Of a DNA stretch of 64,000 nucleotides, positions 28,697 to 54,800 are shown piece after piece; position 1 is the stretch's first letter; each line of letters begins with the position of its first letter. This DNA comes from Apostichopus japonicus. Lineage: Eukaryota; Echinodermata; Holothuroidea; Aspidochirotida; Stichopodidae. The translations under genes were made by a program, and so were the position numbers. The stretch is taken from assembly GCF_037975245.1 (NCBI RefSeq), contig NC_092574.1, positions 8,432,213 through 8,496,212 of the forward strand. The letters are read 5' to 3'. The notes below the pieces were generated by a model. The model was not told where the DNA came from. It was given only the letters and a program-made list of their open reading frames with translations, and searched no databases.

Positions 28697-31600
28697 TTAA
28701 AATGGATTGATAAGGACACCTGTGGCCAACGGTGAAAACAGATTGACTTTAGCCCACATCAGTGCGTCGTTGTACGAGACCACCGAGCTGGCATCCTCCA
28801 AGAAATACGCTGGGCCCTGAAATATGACAGAAAATACATCGGAGTGTCTTTATTTAGATCAGGGGTTCCCTAGATGGGGTGCATGAACATTAGAATAAGA
28901 GAACCTAGTAATCTGGATATAGAAATGTCTCTACTTCTCCAGCGATAGTTTTTCGTTTAAGTTTTGCTCCTAAAAAAGGCAGAGAATCTCTCTGATTCTC
29001 CTGAGAGATTGTCCATGAAAATCTGATACCTGAGATCAAGGAAGGGAATCCTTTTAGAGTTAGACTATGTATTTCAGTCACTTTGGTTGATGTTAAATTT
29101 TTATTAAAATTTGAATTATGATTTCCTACAAAGTTAAAATCGGTAGAGAAATACAACCGGGTTTTTAAGAGCCGAGTCCCGAACCAGACGGTGATGAAGA
29201 CAAAATATAAAGGTGTCTACCTGAATCCGTTTCTTTGAGAATAGCGACTGGTGAATATCCGAATGACAGGGTAAGTGAGATCCCGTAGCTACGTCTACTC
29301 CAGGTTCTAGGTCGCAGGTTTCTGTCCCAACTCGTTGTAATATACTCTCGTACAGAGCTACTTGGCGCAACGTCGGAGGATCAATTGGCACATTCTCTGG
29401 AGATCTAGGTGTGTTCACAGTGAATCAAACATAACAAGTATTAATGTTGGGGGATGTATGGAGACATTTTCTGGAGATCTAGGTGTGTTCACGGTGAATC
29501 AAACATAACAAGATGTTAATGTTGGGGGGATGTATGGAGACATTGTCTGGAGATCTAGGTGCATTCACGGTGAATCAAGCATATCAAGTATTAATGTTGG
29601 AGGATGTGTGGACTCATTCTCTGGAGATTTATGTGTGTTCATGGTGAATCAATCATAACAATTATTAATGTTGAAGGATGTGTGGAGACATTGTCTGGAG
29701 ATCTAGGTGCGTTCACAGTGAATCAAATATATCAAGTATTAACATGAAGGATCTTTGGACTCATTCTCTGGATATATACGTGCGTTCACAGTGAATCAAA
29801 TATATCAAGTATTAACATGGAGGATCTTTTGACTCATTCTCTGGAGATTTACGTGCGTTCACAGTGAATCAAACATAACAAGTGTTAATGTTGGGGGATG
29901 TATGGAGACATTGTCTGGAGATTTCTATGTGTTCACAGTGAATCAAACACATCAAGTATTAATCTAGATGTGTTCACTGTTCACAGTTTATCAAACACAT
30001 CAAGTACTAACATGGAGGATTTTTGGACTCATTCTCTGGAGACCTAGGTGTGTTCACAGTGAATCAAACATTACAAGTATTAATGTTGGGGGATGTATGG
30101 AGACATTTTCTGGAGATCTAGGTGTGTTCACGGTGAATCAAACATAACAAGATGTTAATGTTGGGGGGATGTATGGAGACATTGTCTGGAGATCTAGGTG
30201 CATTCACGGTGAATCAAGCATATCAAGTATTAATGTTGGAGGATGTGTGGACTCATTCTCTGGAGATTTATGTGTGTTCATGGTGAATCAATCATAACAA
30301 TTATTAATGTTGAAGGATGTGTGGAGACATTGTCTGGAGATCTAGGTGCGTTCACAGTGAATCAAATATATCAAGTATTAACATGAAGGATCTTTGGACT
30401 CATTCTCTGGATATATACGTGCGTTCACAGTGAATCAAATATATCAAGTATTAACATGGAGGATCTTTTGACTCATTCTCTGGAGATTTACGTGCGTTCA
30501 CAGTGAATCAAACATAACAAGTGTTAATGTTGGGGGATGTATGGAGACATTGTCTGGAGATTTCTATGTGTTCACAGTGAATCAAACACATCAAGTATTA
30601 ATCTAGATGTGTTCACTGTTCACAGTTTATCAAACACATCAAGTACTAACATGGAGGATTTTTGGACTCATTCTCTGGAGACCTAGGTGTGTTCACAGTG
30701 AATCAAACATTACAAGTATTAATGTTGCTCATTAATGTTGCTCATGCTCTGGAGATCTACATGTGTTCATAGTGAATCAAACATTATACCGTGTAGAATC
30801 TATGGACACATATTCCCATACTCATTTCTATTATTCATACTCACTCCTCATTCTTGTTCATTTCATGTTGCGTTACAGCCAACCAGGCATCCAGTTCCAG
30901 CTCTATTTCAGTTGGAGTAAGAGGGAGATCCATCTCCTCGTTAGTGCATAGATGTCTGCATTTGTTAGTGAAATAATAGATAATTCAAAACTTCCTCTCC
31001 ACAACATCAGAGAGAAAACAAATGTCCCCTCCCACCGGCCCCAAACTGTCAGGCCAGTAGAGATTACTCCGTACCAAGCCTACTTGCATTAGTTTGAAGC
31101 GTCTTCTTGAAATGTAATCTGGTCGGTTGGTTGAAAGTTGCAGACATCACCAACAAATGAAGTATCATATAAGTTTGTAATTTCTCGGAATTAGAGATTT
31201 ACTTTACAAAACTACATGCTGATAGGAAATATCGGCAAACGCAAACAAACAAATCTTAAAACCTTTAAAATCACCAGGATGTTGCACATTACTGACGATA
31301 CCTAACTTCAAAGGCGAGAAAAGCACTGTTAACAGACTGCTGATCTACTGCAAAGAGCCTGTGCTTGTAAATATATAACAGGTTTGAGGGGCCTAACATT
31401 TCACTCCAACTAGTATCATCTACGATAGCCTCTGAAGAAGATTCTGCTGGGATGGCAACGTCAGTGTCTCTGACTACTTCTCTATGCATGACGTAACTTT
31501 TAATATGTCTTTCGATCGGTTAATGGATGGATACAATGGAAACACTAGCTGACACATTGTGTACAGAGCTAATGCTAACCTGTACAGTGCTGGCGTACAA

Positions 31601-34600
31601 CTTTGTGTAGTACTCACTTTGCTAAATTGTACAGTGCAGGCACGACGGTAGCGTAATATATCTTTCAATTGGTTAATGGAGGGATACAATGGAAACACTA
31701 GCTGACACATTGTGTACAGAGCTCATGCTGACCTGTACGGTGCAGGTATAATTTTCTGTGGATTACTCACTTTGCTAAATTGTACAGTGCAGGCACGACG
31801 GTAGCGTAACCTCGTCTGATAGCTAACAGAGCTCCGATGTAGGCACTCAGGGCAATAAGCTCTCTTCTTGATCTGAAGAAAGAAACAAAAAAAACCACAA
31901 AAATGAGGAACTGGTGAAGGCAAAGTTCAAGCTTTTCAGAACAGCCCAATAAATATTTACTGATCGTAAAGCAGTCATACAGGGACTTATATTACATACT
32001 GATATTACACCGATTCCTGGTCTGATGATTGTTAACTAACTTACCATATGTTCTACTGGCCGGAAAATTGCCGGTTCCTTTTTTTTTTTCTCGAGGCAAA
32101 TAGCCTGAATGTTGAGGCCTGATTTATAACAATCTATCTATCTGATAACTCTGTGTGAACTGATTGGAAGTACGAAGTAGGGAAGAAAAAAAACTTACTT
32201 TGAGCAAGACTGCTGCATTAATTTGTCTGTTCTAATACAGCTCATGAGTTTTACAAGTGATAAGAGCTCATCTAACTTCCAGTTACCATCCTCAAGTTTG
32301 GCTATAAAGAAAAATCAGAAAAGTAAAATATCAAATGTTGTTGAGAAAAGGTTGTTCCATTTCAAAATTGATCCACTCTTTCCCAATATTGAGATCTGCA
32401 GACTGTGCAATGTGCATCCTCAATATTAAACCATTACTTCTCACATAAAATATATTAACACTTAAACTAATCAAGTAACCTAACCCCTGATCGCTTGACG
32501 ACGACCTAACCAACTTGTCAGCCCCAATAGTCATACGCAAAATAGTCTCTAGGCTAAGTTACAATTGCTATGAAGGTGCTTACTGTAAAGCTGTATGCCT
32601 CCAATGTGATTGTTGAATTGTCAAATCTAAGAATTTACTGGTGGTTGATGTTGATTGCAGAGCAAAATTGTTCCAGAAAGTTTACAGGGGGGATCACATC
32701 CTTGTAGCATTTTGTATCACAAAAGATATGATTTTTTTAAATCTTGTGATAGTTTTGTTAATGCATCTGGCAATAGCGAAATGGGATGTCATCAGGGCAC
32801 TTCAGCTGAACATATCTTAAGTCAAGGGCAGGATATTGAGATGGGGTTTTTACCTAGCAGCGTCGAATATGTTTTCTTTTCACTCTTAGTTTCACATTGT
32901 TTGTCACCAGAAAATCCTTTTAAATCTGCTCGTTTGACACTTGATAAATTTGCCCTGTATTGAAGAAATTATGCTATGAACACTACCAGTTGCTATTGAA
33001 ATGCAAAATACTACACCCTGCCTGCCATGTAACTACAAATGTCGAAAAAAGTCATCCAAAGATTGACTGATAACGTTTTTTACCTTAAATTTAACAAAAC
33101 CCAGAAGCAGATGATAGATAAGATTTTCAAAAGTACAAATAAATTCTAAAACAGATAAAAAATATTAAGAAAATTACAAAACAAATTCTCCTGGATGTTT
33201 TACTGAATATTTCTAAAAAACTTACAGATGATAAGCGGTAACCCAACCTGCAAGGCCACTTCTGGTGTAGATGAGAGCAGAAAGTATTGTACAGATTCTT
33301 CAATATTTACTCCCTGAAGGCTTTCAGCTCTGACTAAGCATTCTTCTACAGTTGGGAGACCAGCCTAGAAGAGAACATACACCAAAATATAAAGAATACT
33401 ACAGATCTAGCTATTGCTTTCACCCAGTCTCTGGACATCCATTGAGCACAAAATGTGCCAAATATTGCACAAAATGTAAATAGATCTGTCGGTTCAGCTG
33501 AAAAAAGCAAAATAAAAACTTTAAAGTTGCAACAGATCAAAAGAGAGTAGTTTGATAAAGTTGCGTGAGAAGGCTTTGATACAAGATTGTAAACCTTTAA
33601 CTTTGAATAACACTTCTTTTTTTTCACTTACCTTTTTGTGCATATGATTTATTTCAGCCACGCTGCCTGAACAGCGGGCACAGGTCTGTATGAGATACTC
33701 TTTGCTATCTGGTAAAGTCTGTAAGAGTTCCACCGATAAATCCCTATAAATAAAAAAAATTAAAAAATAGGGAAGAAAGAACGGAAAGAATGAAGTCAAA
33801 GTTCACCAAAATGTTATGAAACACAGTTACTACAGCATGGATGGCTTCATCACATGCATTCTAAAAATAATTCTCCATCAATACGTGACCAGAAATTCAT
33901 CAAACTTGAAGGCCATCAGTATTGCCCTCAAAATATGCTAGAAAGTCTTCTATTGGTCATGTGGTGTTCAAACGTCGACAGGAATTCTGCCGCCAGCCTC
34001 ACTGAAAGTACATGTTTCCACATCGTGACTTTCGTTTGGTATAGAACAGTCAATTCTCAACGTACGGGACTACTTACTTGCAGGGTCTCGACTGCCCTGA
34101 GGGCGCTCTGGAAAACTTTTAACAAGCCTTACAACCAGGCTAAAACATGTGGCCTATAATGACGACCATTAAATATACTTGCTCTCCTATAAGGGTTTTT
34201 TTTGTGGAGGGTTTTTCTTGGCTATACAAAGTAAAATCCTTAATCCCTGGCAGAGTTTGTGGCTGAATCTTTTTAAGTTTTGATTATCGTTGAGTAAAAG
34301 CAGTGGAATTTGTCAAGTTTTGTTGTCGGTTATGTTTGTTTGTTTGTTTGGATATGGACTTCTCATTAATTGTTACTTTAATGCGTTTATTCATAAATTA
34401 AAAGAACAAATCCTCGTCGGATTATACACTCAATCTCCTGTTTTTGAGGTGTGGTTTTCGAGCAATTCACAGATCATATCCGAAGAGAACTAACAAGAGT
34501 GGATGGTTTTGATCAAGAGCAAACATTACTTCAGACCCTCCCAACAGACAAAATCAGTTAAGACTGTGAAACAGACGAATGTACATATGGACAGAGTGAT

Positions 34601-37600
34601 ACACAGAAAATAGCATAAGGCTGATACAGATTCAATGCTATGAAACCACAAATGCTTGAAGACAGCACAGCAATTTTATACTACCTAAAAACTACAAAAC
34701 TCCGTACCATATCACCTCCATAAATATATAATTTATATATAAAATTAAATAAATATTTGTTACATAAGAATGCACCACTCAAAAAAAGGCAATTATATAA
34801 TCTTTCTCGTCTTGGGGATACAATTCCTGAATCTGTACTGGGTAAAAGTCTTTGTGAATGTCTCACACATATCACAATGACGTGCGATTTATGAAAGCAA
34901 GAAGTTGATAAGCAATAAAAAAAAAATGATCATAAATAACCAAAAAAAAAAACAAGAAAGAAGATGAGAAGAATAAAATCGGTATGCCACCTGCTGCGTT
35001 CACCGCAAAGAATAAACCAAAAGGAAAAACTTACCATTTTCCCAACTTCTCACATCTTCTGGCTAAAAATTCTGTTGCCATGGTGATCAAATTTTGTACC
35101 TGTTGGGGATCTATTGATTGGCCGATGCATATCGCCAACTCTAACTCATTTCCCCGGATCAGTTTTGATAATGCTTTCTATAAATAAAAAGAAAAAAGAG
35201 CCCTTTTTTGTTAATGTTATAAAGCACTCTGTGACAAAAAGATTTTGTTAAAACATTTGTCAGTGAAGCAAACACTATATCTTTTTCTTTATGTTATGCA
35301 AAGCTGGGATAAAAGATTACCATAAAATGTTTTCTCTTCTTTTGTTAAGGCTTTTAAAATTATTATTGATCATCAAGCTGTTTGCCACCCAGACGATGAT
35401 GCTTTTTAATCGATTGGCTGCCCACTAGGAAACCGACTTGGCATATAAATAAATCTTTTAATTTGTTTTCTCGATAAAGTGGCTTTACAGTAGAGGAAAA
35501 AAAGTCCAGGGAATGTAATAAACAGAGATTACAAAACAATGGGTGTATATTCTTGGATTACCTGGGCTCTTTGTTTATTCAGAGAAAATTTGTGTCTGAA
35601 CTGAAGCATTTTTTTTTTTGTGGCACTACAACATTATTCAGTTTGTTTCTGTAAAGAAACAGATTCATATATGCCATATATGCTATTTCATATATTTGTA
35701 CGATATTCATGGTTTTGGAAAAGAAGCCAATCAATTGAATTAACAAATATGATACCGTCCTCGATATATTGTATTTTTGCAATAAAACATCACCCAAGTT
35801 AGAAGTGATGATATCTTCCTCAATATTATTCCTTACTTCCACAATCCTGCCTGTCTTATTTTTTAGTCCGATAGTTCAACATTATCAAAAATAATAACTT
35901 TCAGAGCTATACTGTGATGAAAGATACAAACTATTATCCTGTGTTGATTGAATATCAATTTCTTTCCCTATTTTAAAAAAAAATGTCAGATATCTTACTT
36001 TGACTTCCCCGACAGAGAGATGGCAACAAGCGGCCAAAACAGGAGATCCATCTAGAAAGAAGCGATCTGCTAACTTCTGACTGGCGTAGTGTAACAATCT
36101 ATCACCAAATACAAAGAAAAAATAAAAATAATTACTATTATGATAACTGATGCATGTGTGGCATATAATACACAATCAAAGCTATAAAACTTGTTCCGTG
36201 TCCAGAAAGGAGTTGGGCCTTACAAAATTAGCCACATACAGTTTAGTTGGTTTTGAGCTATTTACTTCTATTGAAATCCCCTCCCCCCCCCCAAAAAAAA
36301 AATTTAGTAATAAAATTATTGGCATAAGGTTTTTCTTTTCATATCCTATTGGATCTCCTAAAATCATGAGATGCTTTAAATACTCACTTGACATGTTCTT
36401 GTTTTGGAAGACCCAGCCCGTTTTGATTCCCTTTAGGTATTTCGATTCCACGGACTGATTTAGCCAGGCCCTCCATCGATAAGTTGCCTTCGCAGGCCGT
36501 TTGAGAGACGAGCATTGCATCTTCGTGGTGACCGTGGTCGATAAAATACTTGACCACTTCTTTCAAGTTACCCACTGCCTGGTGGTGAGGCACACAGTCA
36601 TCTAATCCTTGAGATCCAAGGAAATCTGCATATCTGGGAGAAAAGAAAATAAGAGTAATAATATGGTTTGTCCAAAAAAATAAAAAAAATAAAATGAGAA
36701 CTAGAGGGCAACACTTGAGGTACTTACATAATGTCATAAAGAAGCAGCAAAGATGGTAGGGAAGGGGAAAATAAACCAATACAAAGATCATTCCTACCAC
36801 CATTCTCCCATACCATCCTACCACCATCCTTTACCATACTATCCTAACACCATCCTCCCATACCATCCTAACACCATCCTCCCATACTATCCTACCAACA
36901 TCCCTACCACCATCCTCCCATACCATCCTACCACCATCCTCCCATACCATCCTACCACCATCCTCCCATACCATCCTACCACCATCCTTTACCATACCAT
37001 CCTAACACCATCCTCCGATACCATCCTAACACCATCCTCCCATACTATCCTACCAACATCCTACCACCATCCTCCCATACCATCCTACCACCATCCTCCC
37101 ATACCATCCTACCACCATCCTCCCATACCATCCTACCACCATCCTTTACCATACCATCCTAACACCATCCTCCGATACCATCCTAACACCATCCTCCCAT
37201 ACCATCCTCCCATACCATCATCCTATACCATCCTACCACCATCCTCCCATACCATCCTACCACCATCCTCCCATACCATACTATCCTACCACACCAACCT
37301 CCCATACCATCATCCCATACCATCCTACCACCATCCTCCCATACCATCCTCCCTTACCATCTTACTGTAATGAGAAGTTCAAGCATTGAAAAAGATTTAT
37401 TCACAGACAGAATGCTCTCACAATTTGTGAAACTGTCAACGCAGGTTACAAAATGGTATATACTCTCACATTTGACTTAACAATATCTGAAAAACAAGGA
37501 ACGAATGGTTCTGGTCATAGAAGTGTACAGCTACTCTCAACATCTTGATAAATTCCAGGATACAATGAGAGTATCCCTAGATATTAAAGAAAGACTTGAT

Positions 37601-40600
37601 GAAGACTCAAATAAAACAGTGTCAAAAGCCACAAAAGGAGTAAAATTATTGCTCAGTACAGTTTTGAAAGTTCCTAATCATGAGTTTCGTATTAATCATT
37701 GTTCTCCTGTCAGTTTTGTGAAGCCTGGAAACTGTTTCTCAAGGGTTCACTCAAATGAACTCGCCTTCAGGCTGTATCGTTGAGAGGTACCTTACCTTAC
37801 ACTTAGCTGTTTCCAGTATTTTACAGAGACGGCCGGTGCCACAGACAGGGCCTTCTCCCACTGTCAAGAGAGCAAATATTAGTGATTACATAAAACACAA
37901 ACAATTCTTTTCCTGGGTGTACATCTAAACCGACAACCATTACTAAACAGCCCTGGTTGCTTTTTATATCCTTAAAAGTTTTATAAACACATTCCAATTC
38001 TGACCAGATTTACTCATGTGGTATGTGCTCTTTAACTGCTACCGAGCATTTTTAACTTGCCTTGACTAGCTATCGGTAAACAGCACAACATTATGCATGC
38101 AAGCATAAAACTAGATGCATATATTTTGTAAGTTTTGTAAGTTCTCCTCCCTCCCCCCCCCCCCATGAACAGCAATCACAGCACATGTTAGTTTTTTTTT
38201 TCTGTTGACAACAATCACTTTTTAAACAATGACCTTATATTTTGGTTGAAGATGTTGAAATTTAATAATCATTTAATGAATGCAATTGAAACAATGCATG
38301 TCTATTCTGGGGGAAAAGCAGCCAAATGAAAGCTCAAAATTATTTTGATTATGATAATAATTTTTAAAAACTTGTAAATAATATCTAACTGAGCGAGCAC
38401 TGTTATGTTATGGGTTTCTGCTACCTCCTCCTCCCCCCTCCTCCCCACCACCAATCATCTTCTGCCTCTTGTCCATCCCTTCATCTATCAACCTCCTATT
38501 TTTTTCGACTGATGGCAACCATTGTACTGGCTGGCATCTGTACTATTCAACACACATCTGCATTTTCCACACACTATAATGAATCTGTGTGAATAGAGAG
38601 AGCCTTTGACTTCTATAACATACTAACCTCATCCAAGTCAACCATAATCTCACAGTATCTCTGAATATTGCCCAGTTTAATGTGAAGATTGGCTGCTTCT
38701 CTTAATCTGTCCTCTCTACTCCTCGCTCCTATCTTATGTACCTTGGCCATTTCAAGTTGTTGAGCTGTAGACTGGAAGGGGGGGGGTGTGGAAATAAAAA
38801 AGGGGGGAAAACAAGAAGAGAAAATCATATTAAAGACAGTCATCATATTAGGAAGACAGTGGAAAAAACTGATGGGTATTTAGAACATGACTGTTTGGAT
38901 TTAAATACTCTCACAACATTCAATGTTTTCTTATATACAAAGATTTCCACATTCACAGCTCAATGTTTTACCAGGTAAACAGATTTAACATGAAGGGAGT
39001 GAACCAAGTTGACAGGTGATGTAAATGGAAAGTTTAAAGGATTTTAACTTCAGGCATATATATGTTGACCCTCAAACACACATGTTCAGTCCAAGTTGGA
39101 TTTCTATTACTGTAAATGACCCTTTAAATAAATGAGAATTCATCAATTAAAGACTATTAAGACTAAAACACAGACCATTAATTAGGTGAGTTCCTCAGAT
39201 ACAACACTACAAAACTGCATTAGGGCAAAAATAAGACTTTCATGGCCTCAATGACATATTTACAATACAATACAACTTTGTCATGGACAAATTGTGTTGA
39301 ATGTCAGTCATCTAGTGCTGCTCTGTTGTTTATAAACAGTTAAAGGAAAAATTTTAATTTTTTTTTTTTTTTGGGGGGGAGTGGGTTTAGTGATTAGAAT
39401 TTATAAAAAAAATATGGATTAATCATTAAGCCCTCACTGACATCCTCATCAAGTCTGAAGCCTTAAAGGAGCATTGAAGAGTTTTTATCACATTCTAACG
39501 GTAAATATCTTGAAAGCCCCAGTAACTACAGAAACATTACTGGCACTCCAATTGTACTATATATCTTGGACAATAACATATTGAGATTAAAAATTCGGCC
39601 TAAAATTCACCTTCTTAAAGGTTATCAAAAGTCTCTAGCCATTATAAACAGCTAGCAGGAACTAATTGCGAAGGGTCAGGTTTAACGAGATGATAGTCAA
39701 GGACAAAATAAAAATCTGTGATAGAAGCTGCAATTCCCTGACTGAGTGCTACGAGTATGGTTAACATTCTATATTTAGCATCTCATGCAACACAAATTCA
39801 ATGAGAGGTAGAGCCATCTCTTGAGGTAAAGGTAGAGGTAGAGCCATCTCTCTTGTCTATACTTACTGCTTTGTACCTGCAGATGTGTTTCATATGCATG
39901 ATACCTTTACTGTAGTCTTCGGACAGCTGCGAGTCATCCAATCCGTTGATGACGGATACTAGCTCCCAAAGATTTCTCAAACCTGATGGAGGCTGTGAAA
40001 TGACGGGGGTATAATTAAAAGGTGAAGTGAAAGATAGATTTGCATACATGTTAATGTTTTGTGGCTTGGCAGTTCAAACAAATACAACAAGTTACTTGCA
40101 TATTTAGCAGGAAGCCAACAGAAAAAAACTGTAAAATTCTAGGCTTCTCAACAACCAGAAGAAAAATACCAAAGTAGAATAACTAATAGGAAATAAAATT
40201 TTAGAAGAATTTACAAATGTTTTACACTCTCATTTGTTTGTTCATTAAAAGCAAACAAACTGTATTCAAGGAAATGTCTCGGATTGATGCAACTGGTATA
40301 CTTGATGAACGTAGAGGTTATTCATATCGCAAGCGTTCGGCAGATTGAATCATCCGAGGGGAATGTAAGAAAAAATTTTGGAGAAAACTCACCGAGAAGA
40401 GCTCGGAGAACCATTTGAGCAGCTGCTGTTTGTCAATATTGCCACGGAAACAATCTATCCTCTGCTTGAGGTCCCTGGATATTCGGCCAGACATGACGTG
40501 AGCGGTAGTAACAGCCAGTGCATGATCTGCGGATAGCAACAAGAAAGAATTTAGAGAAAGGTTTGCATATGCCTGCCAGAAAATAATAATAATATTAATA

Positions 40601-43600
40601 ATATAAGATTTGTAAAGCGCTTTTATCCAGTTAAAAAAAAACTGCTCAGAAGCGCTGCAGGAGCAAAGTACCCAAAATGGACACAACAGTTATTAAACAA
40701 ATGGATACGCATTCATGAATGAGAACGTCTTGAGTTCTTTCTGGAAAGTTGACACATGCTGGATTGTTTTCAGATGTAAGGGGAGACTGTTCCAGCGCTG
40801 TGGAGCTGATCTAGCAAAGCAACATTCCCCATAGGTGGAAGTGCGAACAGTAGGAACAGATAGCATATGTTGTACGCTTGAACGAAGCACCCTGCTAGGT
40901 CTGTATAATGGTATGGTACTGACGGTAATTCTCATCATTGATTGTAGACTGCAGGATATTTCAACCACCTGTGTTGTCCTACTTTCATATACATCTTGGA
41001 CAATATTTCAATCTTTAAAAAGTTTCACTTGTTTTAACTCTTAAAGCTAAACATATCCAACCACCACAAACAAATACTGTATCAACTCCAAAAAAACTGT
41101 TATTACACACATTTCACAATTTTATAGTTTCAGTGGTTTAATTGTAATTTCTGGTTACTTTTCGTACCGAGTTGTAAATTTTCCTCGAAGAAGAATAATT
41201 GAACTTAAAATTAAATAAATTCAATGTTTCGTACCGAGTTGTAAATTTTCCTCGAAGAAGAATAATTGAACTTAAAATTAAATAAATTCAATCTTGAATA
41301 TTTTCACTTGTTTTTAACTCTCAAAGATTAACATATCCAGACAAGCATATCTAACCACCACAAACAAATATCAACTCCAGAAACTGTGTTATAACACACA
41401 TTCACAATTTAACAGTTTCAGTGGTTTCATTGTAATTTCTGGTTACTTTTTGTACCGAGTTGTAAATTTCCCTAAAAGAAGAAGAATATTTTGAACTTGC
41501 AATTAAAAATAAGGTTTAACATATTCTCTGTCAAATGTGCTCGTAGTGTAAGCATATATACATTTGTAATTGACCTGAGGCACAAACCTGATTTTGTCTT
41601 CAATACAACATTCCTTGAATTACAACAATGAGCTTAATCCTCACCCGTCGGTGCAATGACCTCGTGCATAGGTTTGCCCGCTATTATCCTGATCTGAATG
41701 GTGGAGAATAACGTCGACAGAGACCAGATACGAACAGTTGAATCTCTTGAACAAGACGCCACCACGAAGGGTCTTTGGGGATGGGTGGTGAGTCCGTACA
41801 CATCTGCTCCGTGATCTAGAATCTTATCAATGCAGGCCCCGTCCCTATCCCGGGGAAAAAACAGAAAACAAGTTTTCAGTTTCGTTACTCTTCAACATGT
41901 TTTACAGGTTAACATGTCTGTTAAGTATATTGTCGTAAATATGTAACCATTTTCAAACATTTCATAAAAACTCCTTTGATTTCATCTTCAGGCAAAACAT
42001 AATATGTAACTTATGACACCCGACGCCTGATCAGGGTTTAAATGACAGAAATAGCGCTGATAAAACATGCATGATTAATTATTCCGCTTTTTGTCCCCTG
42101 CTGTATTAAAAGCAAACAAAATTTATTTAACTTTGACACTTTTATCAGCAGAAAGTTGATCCCATCCCTGTTCATTTGATTATTTTGTTAAATAGATAGG
42201 TAGATGTTTGAGGCAGCTGGTAAAAGTGAAAAAACATCTAAGATTTTCAAAATTTATAATACAGAGCATGTGAAATGAAATGACATTTATCAAATTCCCA
42301 GCTGTATATTTTATTGAGTAGTTGAGATACAAAATGTGAAAATATTGTACTCATTTGAATGAAATTTGTTCTTGTTATTAGTGCATGATACAATAAACTT
42401 CTTACATGATGCGAAGGATAACACCAACAATTAATTTGATTACCTTTAAAAGTGATATAACTTTTATATAACCTTGGAAATCAATTCTACATGCTTTGGC
42501 GACCAGTTCCAAATGTGTGATGGTACAGTATGTTATTTCATGTTGCCAAGGTGAGGCCGTGTGACATGATACACAATAGACAATGGGTTCAAATGTAGAG
42601 ATATGATAACTGAATTAATGAAAAGCATGGAAGAACTTAAAAGATGGTCTGATGCGTTATCCATGTTTGACATCACAAGTTGTTGTACAATTGTAACTTA
42701 TCAAATTAAAATATTCAATTCCCAAAATAGTATGTCTCAGTGATACAAAATGTAATTAAAACTAAAGTTGGTCTACTGTGTGACACATTTTAATTCTTGT
42801 GCTGATTTATATGATTTAAATTGCAAAAAAAGTGAGAAGGCAAGGCATATAGCTGTTGAAGATAAACAAACATGAAATCTACCAAATAGATGGAAAAAAA
42901 AATGCAAAATGGTACATTTCAGGGATGCCAAGAGCAATTAGGACTTAAGTTGGACTAATGTTTGATGCATTTACTTGCTCTGTATTGTATATATTTTAAA
43001 TTGCAAACTTTGTTAAACCTTCAGATGAGAAAGCATATGAGAACGGGATGCTTTTGACAAAGAGACAGCTTTCAAATGAATCAGAAAAATAGTTTATGAC
43101 TTGACCTTTCAAATGAATCAGAAAAATAGTTTATGACTTGACCGTCAATGTTTTGGTCTTGTTAGATGTCAAACAGCTGTGTACTGACTGACCACTACTG
43201 ACCCAATTCTAAACTACTATTACCATATTAATAAGCCTTTAGTTTACCTGACATCCCAAACTCTGATGGTATAGTCCCACGACCCCGACATCAGTAAATA
43301 GGGGATCTCTGGGTTCCAGAGAAGACCCCGGACATGCCCCGTATGACCAACCAAAATATTAACGCAGCTGTCCTGGGTGTAGTCCCATATCCTTATTGTT
43401 CTGCAATAAAGTATAAAAAAAATGAATATAAACTCAAAGTTCAGTCTAGCAGTGGTCAAAGGTATAGCTGTGGTCAAAGAGTACGGCTGTGGTCAGAGGG
43501 TACAGCCGTGGTCAGAGGGTACCGCCGTGGTCAGAGGGTACGGCTGTGGTCAGAGGGTAAGGCTGTGGTCAAAGGGTAAGGTTGCGGTCAGAGGGTATGG

Positions 43601-45754
43601 CTGTGGTCAGAGGGTACGGCTGTGGTCAGAGGGTACAGCTGTGGTCAGATAGTATGGCTGTCGTCAGAGGGTACGGCTGTGGTCAAAGGGTACAGCTGTG
43701 GTCAATGGGTACGGCTGTGGTCAGAGGGTATAGCTGTGGTCAGAGGGTATTGCTGTGGTCAAAGGGTATGGCTGTTGTCCAAGGGTACAGATGAATTATA
43801 ATTATTTGTAAATATAAAATACTGAATGTGCCATGATCCTCCCTTCACTAACAACCACTGGAAAAAGAGAAACCTTTCAACCTCAGATCTCAAGCCTGCC
43901 GCACACTGCCTGACTGATCAGAGCACAAGACGATTGTTTGCTGGTAACGATTCGGAGCTTATTTAGGTCACATTGCAACTTCATTAGCCCAGTGATTGGT
44001 CACATTTGTTAAGACTGTCCAGTTTTTATTCCTAAACTACCGCACGCCTCCGACTGCCGAAAACACTACACGTTCAGTTTTACCCCACTGGAGCCGACGC
44101 GCCTTAGAATTGGCAATAATTTGATTGGTGGTAGTCTTAAGCACTTGCACACTGTTCGACTATCCATGATTTTTCTGTTTCGCAAAGGTTAAACTAAGGT
44201 GGACGTTCCCTTGGCATATTCACAGTTTAATATGGACCTTAAAAGTAAAAGGATACTATTTAATTACTATAGTACAATTTACATTACCACTCACCCATCG
44301 TCCGAACCGCTACACAGAATCCCATCTCGGAGGGGTGACCATTTCACATGGAATACTTTCGCAGCGTGGCCTTTGAACGTTTTCAGTGGATGTTCACTTG
44401 ATGTGGCGATATAATAAACTCGGACTATACCATCTTCACAGCCAGTAGCGAGCATATCCCTTAAGAAGAGCAGAGAAGAAGGAAAAAAAAACACCTGAAT
44501 GATCAAATGTTTACATGTAAATGTGTCGATAAAGCACATTTTGCTTCAATACTCTGTTACATCTCATGTAGATGATCACCAGTTCCCTAGATGAAAACAT
44601 CTTTCTGAAAAATAACAGATCTGCCCTAAGCTTGTCTACTTGATGCATCCTAGCCCCCCCACCCTCTTCTTCCCTTAACCCTTCTACATGCCTTATCCCT
44701 TCCTCCTTCCCCTTTCTTCATCCAAACAAAATGGATATAAAAACAATAGATATATTATAACCTTACTCTTTTTTTTTTGGTTGCACCTAGATATTTCCAA
44801 GTGGTTATTGAAATAAAATTAACTGAACTTTGCATCATCAAATACTCATTATAATCAAACAACCCCCTCCCTTCCCCTCCCTTCCCCCTCTCACAAAGAC
44901 TGTAGAGACAGTCTTTTAGGTTTTAAGTCAGGTTAAGAAGTCCTTCCAGGTTTGTCTTAATAAAACCTACTTGTTGTTTGGGCTCCAGTCGCATCCGAAG
45001 ACGGACCCAGGGTGTCTATACTTCTGAAGGATCTTGCCGTCGACTTCGCGGACGATACTGCGGCAGAATGGAGAATGGAGAAAAGAGATATCGGGCAAGT
45101 TAGTTTGCCATTGTTTAATTTATCGTTAGAGAATGTTTACGAATGTGGATCATCTTCATCCATTTCACATACTCTGATAGAGGACAAAGTAGGTAAATAC
45201 TTTTGGTCAGTTTGTTCAGGTGAAAACTGACTGCAATGATAGAAATGAATACACTAGAGCAAATGCGCACTTAAATAACACCTCAAGGTTAGCACTGTTG
45301 TGCTTGATATTCTTTGAAGGGGTTTGTAACGCAACATTCATGTTTCTTGATATCAGATTGTCTAAGAGAGAAGGATAGGTTAGGGACAGGGGGTAAGGGA
45401 GCTATAGGGGGAGAGGTGAGGGAGCCAACAGGATCAGGAAAAAGAAGGGTTGAAGGAGGGGGAATGGATGGGGAGGGGTAGTTGAAAATGCTACTCACTA
45501 CCAGTTAAACATTTTTCGCTCTTTATTCTAGCCGATTGATTCCATTTTCAATGTAAACCCACACACACCACAGGTCAGGCCAAATACAAATATTATGTTT
45601 CTAGAACACACCAGCGTCCTTTTTAGGTCCTGCTGCCTTTCTTTCTTCCTTCCTTTTTTTCCTGTATATTTTGCAACTGGTTGAAATATGCCACTTCAAA
45701 TGTGACCGGTAATGCTATGAACACTGTTCGACCGAATCAATCCGAATACTCAAC

Positions 45755-45802
<48 letters not shown>

Positions 45803-48800
45803 TACACATATATATATATATACATATATACACATATATATATATATATATACATATATACACATATATATATATGATCAGTAACTCATGCATGAAATAT
45901 ATAATGGCAACACAAAATCTCGGTATTTCACAAATTCTAGTTACACTGTAGATGAAACTAACAAACATATATGAACATGAACACAATGAACGTATATGAA
46001 CATAGATGAACATGTATGAAGAGAAAATACAGCACAAAAAAACAACATAAAAACCTTGACGAGACATCACAGAATGTGTGAGTTTATTATCAAGCTTCAC
46101 TAATCAATCAAGGACATCCCACATATTGATCCCGATGTATTCACGTTATAACATCAAACAGTTACAGGGACAGATAACTTACCAGAAACTATCTGCAGCA
46201 CATGAGGCAATCCTCCTCGAGTCCTTCTGATTCCAAGCAACTGAGAAAATACTCGCTTTTGAATGCTGCATTGATAAGACAAGAGCATCAATGACGCAGT
46301 ATCTCAATACTGGAAGTTTTAATTTTGATTCCTAATTTCAAATCTTTGCTCTGTCTCTACAATTATCAATCATGGTACAACAAATATATAACTTGCATTT
46401 TTGCTACTTTGCCACGAATAGTCTCTGCAGGTTACACTTTATCCTGCTAGTCTTGCCTTTAGCGCTCATTGCCTGTTAGTCGAAAGAACGACGTTGCAAG
46501 GTTTAGTAATGTCATAGAATATTTAAGAACTTGTTTTTTATGTGGTATCCTTCATCTTGGGTCAGTCTCTGTTGGACTTTTTGGTCATATAGTTTGACGT
46601 CAATGACAACGGCCAAATAAGAAGAGGCGAACAACTCGACCAGATTCTTGATGCCTGCCTTGAGAGCTAGGCCTATTGACCTACTGTATGATACTGTAGA
46701 CTGCAGTGGTGACTACCATCAAAACTGTGTCCACTTCTAGATATCAAAACAACCCACGTTTTTCCATCTCAAGTTTTCTGACATGAAGATTTCATGGATT
46801 TATGACTTGGAAAAATAATGTAAAAGAAGATTACAAGTTTTTATATGCAAGTGATGGGTGGCCTCTTCCTCCCCTAATAGCCACCTCAGTTCCTCTCCAT
46901 TTTGTTATTTTATTTTAATTCTTTGTACATTTGATGTCAAACATTACAGGTTCAAAAGAAAGCTAAACATACTTCTTATAACCTTATACATCTTATATCC
47001 TTATAAATAAAACATAACCTTATACAATTTGTATAGTCTTATAAAAGTTGTGATGCTATGGCCGGCTCCTCTTTTATACGTACCCATCAACAAACTTACC
47101 CTGGTCCTTCCTAGGAAGAGCTGTCTAAACACCAGTACAATGCTAATGTGGCTATCACTGAAAGCCTAATAGACCTAGGGGGCCTAGGCTAGGCCTATAT
47201 ATATATTGTTTTAAATGCACTAGGCCTACAGTAAGTAGCCTTCAGAAATACAAGAATGTGTATACGTAATTATACAAAATACATGAAGGGCAATCAAACA
47301 AACTTATCATGGCCCTTGCTCTGAAAAGCTACCTGAACACCAGTACTATCCTTAAATGGAGGTTACAAAAACGAAGGCCTGATATAAAATGCACTTATAT
47401 GTAATTAGCATGCAATACACTACACCTGGCGTACCTAACTACAAATACAAAAATTGGTCGCGAGGGTAGCCATTTTCGTATATCTAACATGTAGCTGCCA
47501 TGAGTCATAGCCAATCTGCTACAAAACAGACTTGGGGGCGGAGCTTAATCATCAAAAACGGACCTTTTTACTAAAAGTAGGGGCGGCAGCTCAGTGTTGT
47601 TTTAAGAAAGAAAAATCATTTAAACATCAAATAAAGCAAATAAAAGCCATAAAATGTCATATACAGCTGGTAAAATTCTTATTAATACCTACCTGTAAAC
47701 AACTAATGAAAGTTTAAAATGTTAATAAAATATATAATACATAGGACCCTATCTTAGACGATACCACTGTTGACAGACAATTCTATTCTATTCTCTTTCA
47801 TAAAACATAAGTTTTGGAGCGTGTGCAAAAATGGGTTGTTTAAACTGGATTTCAGACCAAATTGGCCCGATTTGGACATAAATCGGTGAAGAAGTCATAG
47901 AATGAGATAAAATTCTCGAATAAAAAATGGTAACTTTTGTTGGCCTATATGATATATGCTTGCTCTGAAAATTCCAGAGAAAAAGAACTTTATATGAAGA
48001 CGCTGAAAAATTTTTAAGAGAGGAGAGAGTCCCACTTACTGTTACAATATCTCTATACATGTAATGTATTGAGATAATAAAAAAAATAATGACTATTCGA
48101 TGAAGGTCATATTCATCACTGGAAATTCTAATTTTGTTTATCTACTATATTGTGACTTCCTTCTATGTAATCTTCAAAATGGCCAAAGTTTGTTATTAAA
48201 GGGGGGGGGTTGGATGGTTGGTGGGGGGGGTTGTTCAGGGGAGAGGGTAAAGAAGAATTATAAGCTGCAGAATATTCATTAATGTCACACAATCTGTCCA
48301 AGCTAACATTGAAATAATAAGTCCATACAGAACTAACAGGCTGGTCACTACCCACACAGGCTGATCAACACCTACACAGTAAGTTTAGAATTGATATGCT
48401 TTAGAGGAAATTTTGCATTTCTTTGCCTTTATGGACAGGCATGAGTTTAAACCTTAATTTATGGAGCCAGACCAGTCTGATATCACCCAGGGTCATTTAT
48501 GAAGCATGCAGTATTTGGCCATGTGGGGTAACTTTGTTGGTTACTTTCCATAATAGTATTAACCTCCTGTAACAACAGAAAGCCTTTATGTTTTCGGTAG
48601 AAGTAAATGCTTTAGGAGTTACTTACTGATCCATTTTAATAGTCTCCATGTAGCACTCAGTAACAAACCTACCTAGCTCTAAAAATTAATGGGATGGAAA
48701 TCCTCACTTTCTTAAAACCATTTTTATGAAGATAAATAAATAAAGAAAAATACACAGCAAGATATAAAAAAACATATATAAAAAAATAAAACGATGATAT

Positions 48801-51800
48801 TTAAAAAAGATTTTACCTCAGTAAACCTCTTAATTGTCTTGCCTTTATTCAAATCCCAGATGAAGACACCATTTCGGGAAGTTCCTGCAGCAATGCAATT
48901 TAAGTCAGCTTCCAAAATAAGAATAAAAGAAAAGAAACAAAAGAAAAGGTTTAAACAAATCGATGCTGGTGGCATAATATTTCAAAATCGAAAATTGCTT
49001 CTAGCTATTTATTTAAAAATATAAAAACCAGAAAAAAAAGAAGAGGTATAAGATTTCCCCATTCATTTTAATGTTTGCCCCTGCTTTCAATATGATCAAT
49101 TCAATGGAAAAGAAGACAAAAAAGACTACAAGAGCTATACAATCGAGAAAATGTACTTAAATTTGAAACAGAACTTTTCTGTAGAAGCTAAAAACCGTTG
49201 CAGATTTTGGAAAACAGCGGTTGTGCAAGGTCAACGGACAGATAATCAACTTATCTGAGGGATCTATGTGTAACTTATTCACTTTGAATCCAGAAAATGA
49301 TAATTAATCCCTCAAAATGTAAATCCCCCAAAATTGGTAAACCACACATGAATTATGTATTTTCGGCGGTTCCAAAGTTTCATTACTGGCAGAGCCTGAA
49401 ATTTGTTTGTGTTTTGTATAACATTGCACACAATCAAACAATGATCTCATGTTGCAGGAGATTCATATCATCGATATAAATATTATTTCTTTTCTTTTAT
49501 ATAAGAAGTGTTTATAACAATGACGGAATTTATGACAGGGGTATTATTGATCAAAGCAGATTCTGTCAATGTATTTTCTGAAGCCTTTGCTAGAAAAGTG
49601 AATTTGTCATCCAAACTGATTTTAGTGAGAAATATAAAAAAAATATAGAAATAAAATAAAAAGAGCTTGAACTAGTCTATTTATTACATTCTGCCCATCT
49701 CATTAATGCAATCTAGAGGTATAATGTTGCAGTGCTTGTAGATTGGACAAGTCAATAACCATCCATGAAAAACTCTTTTGAAAAATGTCTTTTTGCTCAG
49801 AGACCTTGTTTAGACCAGGTGCCATCTCGGCTAGGTCACCTGCACAGGCTAAATGCGTCATGTAATAATTTTTGTTTGAAAGGAACAAAGAAATCTGTGA
49901 AGAGAATGGGAATCGATCCAGTGACCCCTGGGTTACAAGCCCAGCGATCCCTGTAGAACTATTTTTTGCTGCAGGGCTCCTGTCCAGTTTTCCATTAGTC
50001 ATCGACTTACATAATTATATGTAATTATATATAAAATTAAATCTATTCCCTGCCACTTTTTGGATTGTCTCAAAGGAAACTGGGGGGGGGGGGAAATTCC
50101 TGGTTGCACGGTATGCAAGGTACTGTGGCTTATGACTGGTGCCCCCAGCAAAGAAATGGCTATATAGGGATTGATGCTAACTAAAGGCTGGATAGCTCCA
50201 GTTGGTAGAGCGCTGCTGGGCTTGTAATCCAGAGGTCACTGTTTCCAATCCCACTTCTAGCCATAAATTTTGTTGCTCTTATCCATTGTCTATAATGTCC
50301 CAGTCTGTTTTCCATTATCCATTTACTTTACATAAATGTTAATAATTTTAGCAGCTCCCAAAGGGGTTTGAAGGGTTTGCATTATAATCACTTTTAATTC
50401 TTTGTAAATGTATTAGTAGGCCTTAACAACATTCACAACTTAGATATTTATATTACAGGGGCTTGTCAAGTGTATGCTTCTAGACCCTTTAGAGGAGTCT
50501 GACAGACAGACAGACAGACAGACAGACAAATGGACAGGATTTAAGTATTACATAGATAAGTGGTAAGAGTATCAGAGAGAGAGAGCAAAAGAAACACAGG
50601 GGATAGACATATGTAAAGAACATCTTAAAAATATTAAACCACTTTAATATTTTCTTGTTATCAAATCAAAGCGGTTCAACCTAGTCAGCTGTATAAGATA
50701 TGCATATCTGCAGGGTAACATAACGAAGTACAGCTAAATGGGAAAGGACTTGTCACTGAATACCTACTCTGTAAAGAACAAGTTACGACGTAATTTGTCA
50801 TATTCAAAAAAGAGTAAAAGTTCATCTGATCAATTTGAAGCTTACATCTAATTACTTAGCTACATTCCTTTTCACGTTCCAAATGTTTTGTTCGTCTCAT
50901 CCCATTCTTCTTTTGAGATGACCATTTTGAATTCCTCCGTCAATCGCTTGATAAAATTTTCCTTCAATGTCCCTCAAGTCATTAGCGAGTAATATCAACC
51001 TTTTTTTCCACTTTTGGTTGAGTTAAAAGGACAAACACAAGATAATCTTGTACAAAAGAAATCTTAGATCAAAGAATTCAAATTATGAGCAATTTTTTAT
51101 TATTTGGCTGTTTTTTACCTGGAGCCCAGGAAAGTGAATAGATGATGCCTTCGTTTCCCGGAGATGAATTTACGGCAGTGAGGGAATTCACGTCCCACAC
51201 TTTCATTGTCCCGTCAAACGAAGCTGTCGCCAAAAGGTCAGGGTTGTCAGGTTTAAACTTACAATCAAAGATAGTTTCTATGTGACCCTGTAAGCAGAAT
51301 GGAAATCAACAAATATTTATGACAAATAGTAAATCTTTAAGGTTCTTGTGTTTGAAACTTGCAAGCCAAATTCGTTAATTGGAACATTAAAGAGTTAAGC
51401 AAAAACAAGCACTGCGTCAAATTGTGAAAGTAATTTATGTTCAAGATTTGTTTCCGATTTGTATCCCTAAAAATATCTGCAATTTCTTTTTTTTTCCCAA
51501 AAATGTTTTGGCGACCCTAAAAAGGATTGCAATCTCCACTTTGAATAGCATGGGTGCTAGAGGAATTGGCTGGTCTACAGTGGTTAGTGCTCAGTCATAA
51601 ATAAAGCCAATCCATTTTTTTTATCTTTATCAAAGGTGGCATCCAATTAACATTTCTACTAAATAGAGATACAGTAATTTTTTAAATTTTTTAATACAGT
51701 AAAGATTGCTCAACCTTCCACATTTCAACTTTCATTTCATTTCAAGCTATTTATATTTTTATCCAGTGAGCCATGCCAACTGATGATAGCAAAACCTTGA

Positions 51801-54800
51801 ATGGTTATTCTCCACGTTGAAATCTTGATCCAAACCGACATACGGGACAGTGATTTCAAAATGATAAAACCATTTTGGCACGAGCATATATCAGACCGAA
51901 TCAAATACTATCATATCTGAAAAATCCAGGCTGAATCAATTAGGTAAACTAGGAAACTTGGTCCTTGCGTTTATTTGCGACCACCACCACTACCGACACT
52001 AATACCGACGACAGGAGAAGAAAATAACAACCTGGAAGGCATTTCTTTACCAATTCTCTAAGGAAGTCCCATTTCCTCTTGCGTAGATCGTACAAGCCGA
52101 CGCCTCCATCTTGGAATGTGCAGACGGCATGACCCGGGGGAAGAGCGTAAGATTGATATTGTTTGCTGCCTCCGGTGTTCGGTGAGCTCTGACTTTGACT
52201 CGACGACCCACGAAGGAGAGACTTTGAGCTGTCGTTGTCGTTGACGTCCGGGTCAGCATTTAAAACGCAAAGCGCGTGGAAGCCCATCTTTTTCAGCTTA
52301 AAACTAAGGATAGGAGACGATTTGGAGACGCTCCATAGACGAAGGATACCGACGTGAGCATCTGGTGAAGAACATTGGTAAAATTACACAAAAGTTGAAG
52401 AGTGAAAAGTAGAATTGTGAACAGGGTTAAAGAAGGATAATGAAAGACAAACGGGAAAACGAAAACGTTCAGTGGTTCCGATGCCCAAAGAATATTCATA
52501 GTGTGGTAAGCGATACATGTCGATATTCATGAACTTGTACACACGGCACCAAAATGAAGAGTGATTATGCATTGACAAATGGGACAACGTATAAAGGGAA
52601 GTTACCACAGATCAGTTATCGTGGTCTGACAAAGTCCATTTAGTGACATCATATTAAAACAATTATATGCATGAATATTAATGAGGTCAAATTTTATGAT
52701 CTCATTGGCATGTACTGTATCTATATATACTGTACTTTCATTGTAGTATCCAAGGACATATATGTATAAAGCTAATTAGACATACAATTTCAGAGATGTT
52801 CGATTCAAAATTTTATGTTCACTGATTAATATTCATGATATGCACACAAAACTTATGATGTTGATTGTATGAATGTAGTGTGACAAACCTAATATGTCAT
52901 GAATGGAAATCATGGAACATTTGGTTCTTTTCTTGTGTTTAAAAACCATTTCTTACAATTAGATGATGACTAAAACATAGAAATGTCATGGAAAGTTTGA
53001 GTATTTTGTACCAGCATCACCATAACAGCAAGAACCAAATTTTACATTAAGTCCTGCCCATTCATTAATATTCATATGGCATGGGAACCAAAACCAATCT
53101 ACTCATCACAGGGCATCTACTTAAATGAGGTAAAAATTATTGTTGAAATGAACATGTCTATATGTAGTTGCATCACCATACCAAGTGTAAACTAAATAGG
53201 ACATACAGTTGTAGAGATAGAGACATTTTAAGAATTTTATGGTAAGCCCTGCTCACTCATTAATATTTATAAGGTGGGAACCAAAAACAACAGGGCACAT
53301 CTACTCATTGTAGGTCATCTACCTACCAAGTATGACATTGATTCAACTTGTGATTGTTGAGATATGGTGTTTACAAGCTATTTTATGAAGATTCCAATTA
53401 AGCCCAGCCACTAATGAATATTAATGAGGTAAATTTGTTGTTGCAAAGATTATGTACTCTATGTAGTTACATCACCATACCCAATATGAACTAAATCGGA
53501 CATTTACGGTTGAAGAGATATCGACCCTTTTCAGAATTTACATTAAGCCCCGCCCACTCATTAATATGCAAGACAGCCCTACCAAAAAACATTTACTGAC
53601 CCTGACCAACATATATATATACTAAGTATGACATCAATCACATATTTCCTTCTTGGGATATTTGTTTCCATTCTCACCTCCAGTTACAAACATGCCAGGT
53701 GCACTGGGGACCCAGGCAAGGGTACAGATAGAGGTGGCCACACTCGGTGTCACAAAGGTCATCAGAACTGTCCTAGACTCACTGTCGATTAGCCTCGCAC
53801 CATACTTTTCGTTTGCTGTCAGTAAGTATTCGGTGGATAGAGGATCCCACTCCAACGCCACGATAGGGTCATCTTCCTCCGTTTCCAAGGTCATAGGTTG
53901 AAGCACATGTTTAAAGCTCTTTGCACCTGACAAAGTCAAATATTTCATCACATACGTAAAAATTTATCAAGGTAATGAAGAATTACTGTTCAATTTATTC
54001 AACGTTACACCCTACAGGCAATCTATACTTGGATTATTCAATGATTCATCTACTTAACGCAACCATACTTGGAATATTGAATGTTATACACCTAAAGGCA
54101 TCCTTACTTGAACTATTCAATATTTCACCTAAAGGGTTTCATACTTGGACTGTTTACTATTACACTAAAGGTATCAATACTTGGACCCATTCAACATTAT
54201 ACCAAAAGGCATCCTTAAATGGATTATTCAATATTATACCACAAGGCATCCTTACTTGGATTATTCAATGTTATACCACAAGGCATCCTTATTTGGGTTA
54301 TTCATATTTCACCTTTAGAATGGCTTCCATACTTGGACTATTATTGTTAAACCTGTATTAAGGTTCAATCTGTACATACCTGGACTAAAGAAAGACAAAC
54401 TGCCATCTTCATGTCCAAAGACCATTTTACCCAACTTTCTGTGGTGCCACCTGAACAGAGTCACGTTCGATATAAAGCTTTGAGCTTCTTTGTGAGGGAT
54501 GGCTGGGTTGTGACCTTCACATTTCCAGAGATACAGTGGACCTTTCCCACTGATGTACGCCACGGCGTCGTTGTCATGCGTGCACCACCCTATACAGGTC
54601 GGCGAGGTCACCTTGGTCCCTTCCAGCTTTGCGATGCACTGCTGCTCGGTGACGTTCCAGACCAGTATTCTGCAGTCAGTTCCGGTGCTAGCAAACAGGT
54701 CCGGGTTTGTGGGGTGCCAGGAGATAGCCGTGATGGACTTTTTATGCTCGGACATAATGGAGTGGAGCTTGAATTCCTTGTAATTCTTGTCCATCTGTGA

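Follow-up and report, generated by a model that had tools for sequence, protein, structure and literature searches.

A minisatellite in intron 23 of a WDR17-like gene of Apostichopus japonicus that probably grew from the edge of exon 24

The host gene and its splice sites

The window analysed here is a stretch of 64,000 nucleotides of the Apostichopus japonicus genome (contig NC_092574.1), and its minus strand carries at 28697..56619 a WDR17-like gene with 25 predicted coding exons encoding a WD40 protein of 1291 residues, as delineated from tblastn exon order, splice sites, the open reading frame and Pfam. The exon order along 56.6-28.7 kb is that of the tblastn query from which the gene takes its name, an unverified human WDR17 sequence. 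The predicted gene is full-length; splice sites with consistent phase join all 25 exons into the 1291-residue protein, in which Pfam finds WD40 and beta-propeller matches. A search for orthologs in collections of genome contigs and viral contigs returned none, and a PDB search gave a single chance-level match (E 0.87). The ratio of observed to expected CpG is 0.41 in the introns of the gene compared with 0.72 in its exons.

Our main concern is the interval between exons 23 and 24. Splice sites and reading frame place exon 23 at 30845..30955 on the minus strand, with its donor GTGAGT starting at 30844, and exon 24 at 29221..29404 on the same strand, entered in phase 2 through the acceptor CCTAG|A with 29404 as the first exon base, exactly where the initial annotation had put it. 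Between them lies intron 23 (30844-29405, minus strand), which measures 1440 bp. Elsewhere in the window, minus-strand open reading frames at 11669-13879 presumably belong to an Ndfip-type membrane protein, to judge by PPxY-like motifs followed by hydrophobic segments.

An array of boundary-spanning units in intron 23

About 96% of the length of intron 23 is a tandem array with a period of about 74 bp. It consists of 20 repeats if the exon-edge unit is counted, spaced at 73-76 bp with two exceptions at 48 bp, and its last unit is the boundary of exon 24 itself. This unit, which the unit alignment defines as U00 (29369..29441, minus strand), comprises 36 bp of the real exon edge (29369-29404) and the acceptor with the end of the intron (29405-29441, 37 bp). 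Upstream of it in the direction of transcription the same alignment places 19 further units, U01-U19, at 29442..30786. The distal end of the array lies at about 30784-30786, so that the extent first given for it, 29369..30725, fell short on that side.

The exon half is kept over its full length in 16 of the 19 upstream units, some of them with a gap or insert of one base; U08 and U17 are truncated to 48 bp, and the exon half of the most distal unit, U19, is scrambled. The exon edge had been described as recognisable in every unit, which thus applies to these 16 and not to the two truncated units or the scrambled one, and the unit quoted as an example of it, ggaggatgtg...cattctctggagattt, is indeed present as U03 (29592-29665).

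Superimposed on the basic period is a higher-order duplication with a period of 639 bp (29434..30727, minus strand), in which 29434-30088 and 30073-30727 are identical over 655 bp with 0 mismatches. Units U10-U18 repeat the block U01-U09 as nine perfect copies. Because this block recurs, only ten of the upstream units are distinct, and the recent doubling means that unit counts are not independent. The perfection of the 639-bp repeat could reflect an assembly error. Among the distinct full-length units, of which there are eight (U01-U07 and U09), the mean pairwise difference is about 18%, at a similar level in both halves of the unit.

The remaining 58 bp at the 5' end of intron 23 (30787..30844, minus strand) are not repetitive and score at chance level against the unit. 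We weighed a 21st unit at this place and discarded it, since scores as high are reached by 1617 of 3000 random stretches; the segment is probably a remnant of the intron as it stood before amplification.

The likeness of the exon to the array is above chance. The 37-mer at 29369-29405, which covers 36 bases of the exon and one of the intron, scores 23 against the array, whereas 3000 random 37-mers drawn from the window outside 28701-31000 have a mean of 8.9 and a maximum of 18, none of them reaching 23, and the remaining four 37-mers of exon 24 score 8. The array is also local. A search of the whole genome (671.6 Mb in 35 contigs) with the array as query, in which the best candidates were scored and very common words skipped, returned this locus only, together with a second short piece at the distal end of the array, and elsewhere in the window the best match has an E of 0.29. 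A dispersed satellite DNA with many loci was therefore discarded, with one locus standing among the best-scored candidates genome-wide when very common words are skipped. The initial annotation had named two findings that would speak against a link with the exon, a similarity no better than chance and the same satellite elsewhere in the genome; the score of 23 against a control maximum of 18 and the single locus among the best-scored candidates (very common words skipped) run counter to both.

A second exon edge and other repeats of the region

Self-comparison reveals a second boundary duplication in the same gene at 31501..31809 on the minus strand, where a segment made of the donor with the final 39 bp of exon 22 and 114 bp of intron recurs as a single copy 153 bp downstream. 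The true donor of exon 22 lies at 31770, and an intact copy of it at 31617, within intron 22, forms a decoy donor; read-through to this decoy would meet a stop immediately. The exon part of the duplication contains 0 mismatches in 39 positions, the intron part 17 in 114, distributed in patches. Gene conversion is one possibility for the unchanged state of the exon part in an intronic copy. As a duplication on the donor side, this case points to the same process acting twice in one gene. A self-BLAST of the window, at E below 1e-4, detected exon copies for 2 of the 25 exons only, namely exons 22 and 24.

Exon edges do not emerge as preferred targets of repeats in this gene, since 2 of 15 hand-picked tandem-repeat clusters cover an edge where 3.7 would be expected at random (P of 2 or fewer 0.195). 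Across 344 kb around and including the window (with 5000 N), the open reading frames that cross the edges of 53 tandem arrays, 103 distinct frames judged by eye in what is a weak screen, contained no further clear exon edge besides the two of WDR17.

The region holds further minisatellites. Intron 2 (54379-53927) is mostly a 37-bp minisatellite of about 9 copies at 53996-54342, for which the self-BLAST of the window shows no exon match, and a 19-bp minisatellite of about 18 copies at 43452-43788 stops, on the upstream side, some 50 bp short of the acceptor of exon 10, which it excludes. About 126-172 kb to the right of the window start there are several separate arrays with periods of 26-51 bp and similar flanking open reading frame sequence, as if dispersed elements carried minisatellites.

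Decoy acceptors and the choice of the true site

Each unit has a position that corresponds to the true acceptor, and many have retained the splice signal. An AG stands at the aligned position in 9 of the 19 upstream units (eight CCTAG and one TGTAG), a CATAG shifted by two bases in 2 of the 19, and a TCTAG of ambiguous alignment in the two truncated units, which brings the units with TAG at or near the acceptor place to 13 of 19 and leaves 6 of 19 in which it is lost. As possible junction ends the 13 TAG sites lie at 30756, 30682, 30602, 30563, 30341, 30193, 30117, 30043, 29963, 29924, 29702, 29554 and 29478. In addition, all 17 full-length upstream units carry a CCAG eight bases further on. 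The assertion that several units keep an intact acceptor is borne out by these counts. The reading frame would not stay open from any such site; 58 AG sites precede the true acceptor in the intron, and from each of them a stop is met after at most 25 codons, before the end of exon 24.

The true exon 24 acceptor is weak. On a matrix built from the other 23 acceptors of the gene, itself weak in that 16% of 1223 non-site AGs in other introns equal the score of the true site, it scores 2.2, compared with a median of 6.3 and a range of 0.8-13.9 for the other 23. It has pyrimidines at 9 of 16 positions, where the other acceptors have 8 to 15. Scored with the same weak matrix, the eight CCTAG decoys reach 0.7-2.6, close to the 2.2 of the true site; intron 23 has 59 AG sites, counting the true one, which ten of them outscore. 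Motifs of the form yTnAy occur 17 and 21 bases upstream in all six sites examined, the true acceptor and five decoys. The row of decoy acceptors that had been proposed upstream of the true one is hence present, with eight CCTAG members scoring near it on this weak matrix.

As to the outcome, the predicted decoys are probably mostly ignored, or else their products are destroyed. Our guess is that the last site would be chosen by its distance to the next donor together with exonic enhancers.

Origin and direction of the amplification

We interpret the array as an exon-edge minisatellite that arose by tandem amplification of the exon 24 edge in place, a reading to which we assign a probability of roughly 0.78. 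A segment of about 73 bp, in which the 3' end of intron 23 is joined to the opening 36 bp of exon 24, would have been tandemly duplicated in place, its intron part bringing along branch-point-like motifs, a weak pyrimidine tract and the AG. Unequal exchange may then have expanded it to about ten units, and one recent duplication of 639 bp would have nearly doubled their number. The upstream copies now lie within intron 23 and would be removed along with it, while selection on the protein would hold the exon half of the real copy and the intron half of U00 would still exchange with the array. The array is flanked by 58 bp of non-repeat intron on one side and by the interior of exon 24 on the other, an exon that is part of an otherwise full-length gene with continuous phase.

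The direction of the process is addressed by the states of individual sites. The eight units U01-U07 and U09 were grouped by eye into two classes, alpha and beta, one holding five units and the other three. The first CpG of the exon (exon bases 30-31) is CA in 7 of the 8 units and CC in the remaining one, and the second (exon bases 33-34) is CA in the class of five and TG in the class of three, which would represent two separate decays of one CpG. Since the units appear to have decayed twice and the introns of the gene are poor in CpG, the state of the exon is favoured as ancestral. At sites that differ between the two classes the exon agrees now with one and now with the other, as would be expected of an ancestor. 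CpG polarity and these shared states together favour, rather than prove, a direction from exon to array.

Other observations count against this direction. Divergence of the exon half from the units exceeds what a simple 'frozen exon' would lead one to expect, and by our own count, in which the numbers are small, 7 of 9 changes on the branches of the exon and class alpha fall at third codon positions, a lean that on the array side is not readily explained by neutral intronic copies. As a test of direction, codon-position bias was dropped because the numbers are too small. Of the unit alignment and unit tree that had been proposed as a check, the alignment places the exon edge as U00, and the tree sets U00 and U19 outermost, apart from the rest, at a low bootstrap of 36. 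The earlier description of a satellite born from an exon edge is the best reading, and as far as direction is concerned it leans on CpG polarity and shared states.

The process might also have run the other way, with a minisatellite growing in intron 23 until its edge replaced an old acceptor and its terminal unit became the first 12 codons of exon 24. Such a history would suit a true acceptor that is weak beside most others and resembles the array consensus, and it would suit edge units, U00 and U19, that form the outermost branches, albeit at low support. It would also require a unit that by luck offered an AG, 12 codons without a stop and the right phase; CpG polarity speaks for the opposite course, the class-beta units have a shifted frame compared with the exon, and the human WDR17 query codes at the corresponding place, a weak point in that the stretch is short and the sequence unverified. 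On balance we regard this reversal as unlikely. A likeness due to accident, or an array produced by the assembly, is less probable by far and has very little to recommend it; the perfect 639-bp repeat would fit an artefact, whereas 0 of 3000 random 37-mers reach the score of the exon edge and assembly error would not produce a mean difference of about 18% among eight distinct full-length units.

A further question is whether the array is kept for a function, its decoys diverting some transcripts to early stops and thereby tuning WDR17 output. TAG at or near its place in 13 of 19 units, CCAG eight bases on in the 17 full-length upstream units, stops within 25 codons from all 58 upstream AG sites and CCTAG decoys that score like the true site are all compatible with such a role. 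Set against them are the loss of TAG in 6 of 19 units, as neutral copies would show, the dependence of the unit counts through the recent doubling, and the regular splicing reported for comparable arrays in amphioxus (PMC3087553; PMC3902484). We consider a regulatory role improbable.

The two halves of the true unit

Compared with a consensus of the eight distinct units that is partly arbitrary at polymorphic sites, U00 differs at 9 of 36 positions in its exon half and at 1 of 37 in its intron half (Fisher p 0.0066). Only four exon states are private, and one of these lies immediately past the 36 bp. Our reading of this contrast is that exchange with the array may extend to the true site's intron half and be selected against in the exon half, although a difference in rate or chance is a possible explanation as well. 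The real acceptor bears the array consensus, and it would do so because the intron half of U00 exchanges with the array.

Taken one step further, the true exon 24 acceptor may be in the course of being rewritten by its own satellite, a suggestion that we put forward tentatively and hold to be somewhat less probable than its negation. The array consensus would be carried by exchange within the array into the 37 bp at the end of the intron, the branch-point-like region and the AG included, and would halt where the exon begins, any longer exchange being removed by selection on the protein. If this were true, molecular drive and not point mutation would be the means by which a splice site evolves, with selection fixing the edge of the array to the base.

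Relation to known exon-edge minisatellites

The view that few satellites of this origin have been described does not stand, since a named class exists in amphioxus and human CBS offers further examples. The amphioxus 'mirages' are minisatellite-like tandem duplications of an intron-exon boundary, found in Adh3 and in the globins BflGb6 and BflGb9 (PMC3087553), with troponin C and PGBD5 as further members (PMC3902484). They occur on both sides of introns, on the acceptor side in BflGb6 and on the donor side, with 157 bp, in BflGb9 (PMC3087553). AG and GT signals are kept in many but not all repeats, and the regular splicing of the genes seems undisturbed (PMC3087553; PMC3902484). The repeats of PGBD5 are imperfect (PMC3902484), and the clusters are said to evolve in concert while their boundaries escape homogenisation (PMC3087553). 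Length instability, between haplotypes or in the soma, is a further trait of the class.

The intron 23 array likewise has a unit that spans an exon-intron boundary, and likewise keeps its splice signal in part, with an aligned AG in 9 of 19 units, a signal at or near the place in 13 of 19 and an intact donor in the copy of exon 22. Its anatomy is the one by which mirages are defined, and it would work like one. Against the 20 units of about 74 bp here, units of 150-160 bp number 6 in one BflGb6 haplotype and 3 in the other, and the unit length compares with the 10-72 bp given for Adh3. The perfect higher-order duplication of 639 bp and the WDR17 host set the present case apart from the mirages. 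As to concerted evolution within the cluster and exclusion of its ends, the array has the perfect 639-bp duplication, U00 and U19 are outermost in the tree at a bootstrap of 36, and the intron half of U00 looks as if it were not excluded.

Two variants of human CBS are closely related in structure (PMC2630376). One is a 68-bp duplication of an intron-exon junction that creates a pair of competing splice sites (called 'donor' in the paper); it is single and polymorphic in people, whereas intron 23 contains an array. The other, the 31-bp VNTR c.1444_1467+7(16_21), is a minisatellite of 16-21 units across an exon-intron boundary, and its composition of 24 bp of exon and 7 bp of intron is read from its name; it sits on the donor side and has a shorter unit, in contrast to the acceptor side and the unit of about 74 bp in intron 23. 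In human segmental duplications, internal tandem repeats across exon-intron boundaries alter intron structure (PMC2812944); these lie in recently duplicated primate genes, have units averaging 30 bp repeated 4 times, and in some instances reportedly give rise to new introns.

Exon-edge minisatellites are natural experiments in which the spliceosome chooses one acceptor among nearly equal ones, and they bear on the growth and birth of introns. This locus contributes a series of decoys whose flanks are matched, a further case from the donor side within one gene, and a true unit whose intron half contrasts with its exon half. The kind itself is already known from the amphioxus mirages and human CBS; the intron 23 array is a further and rather long case of it, for which no new category is needed.
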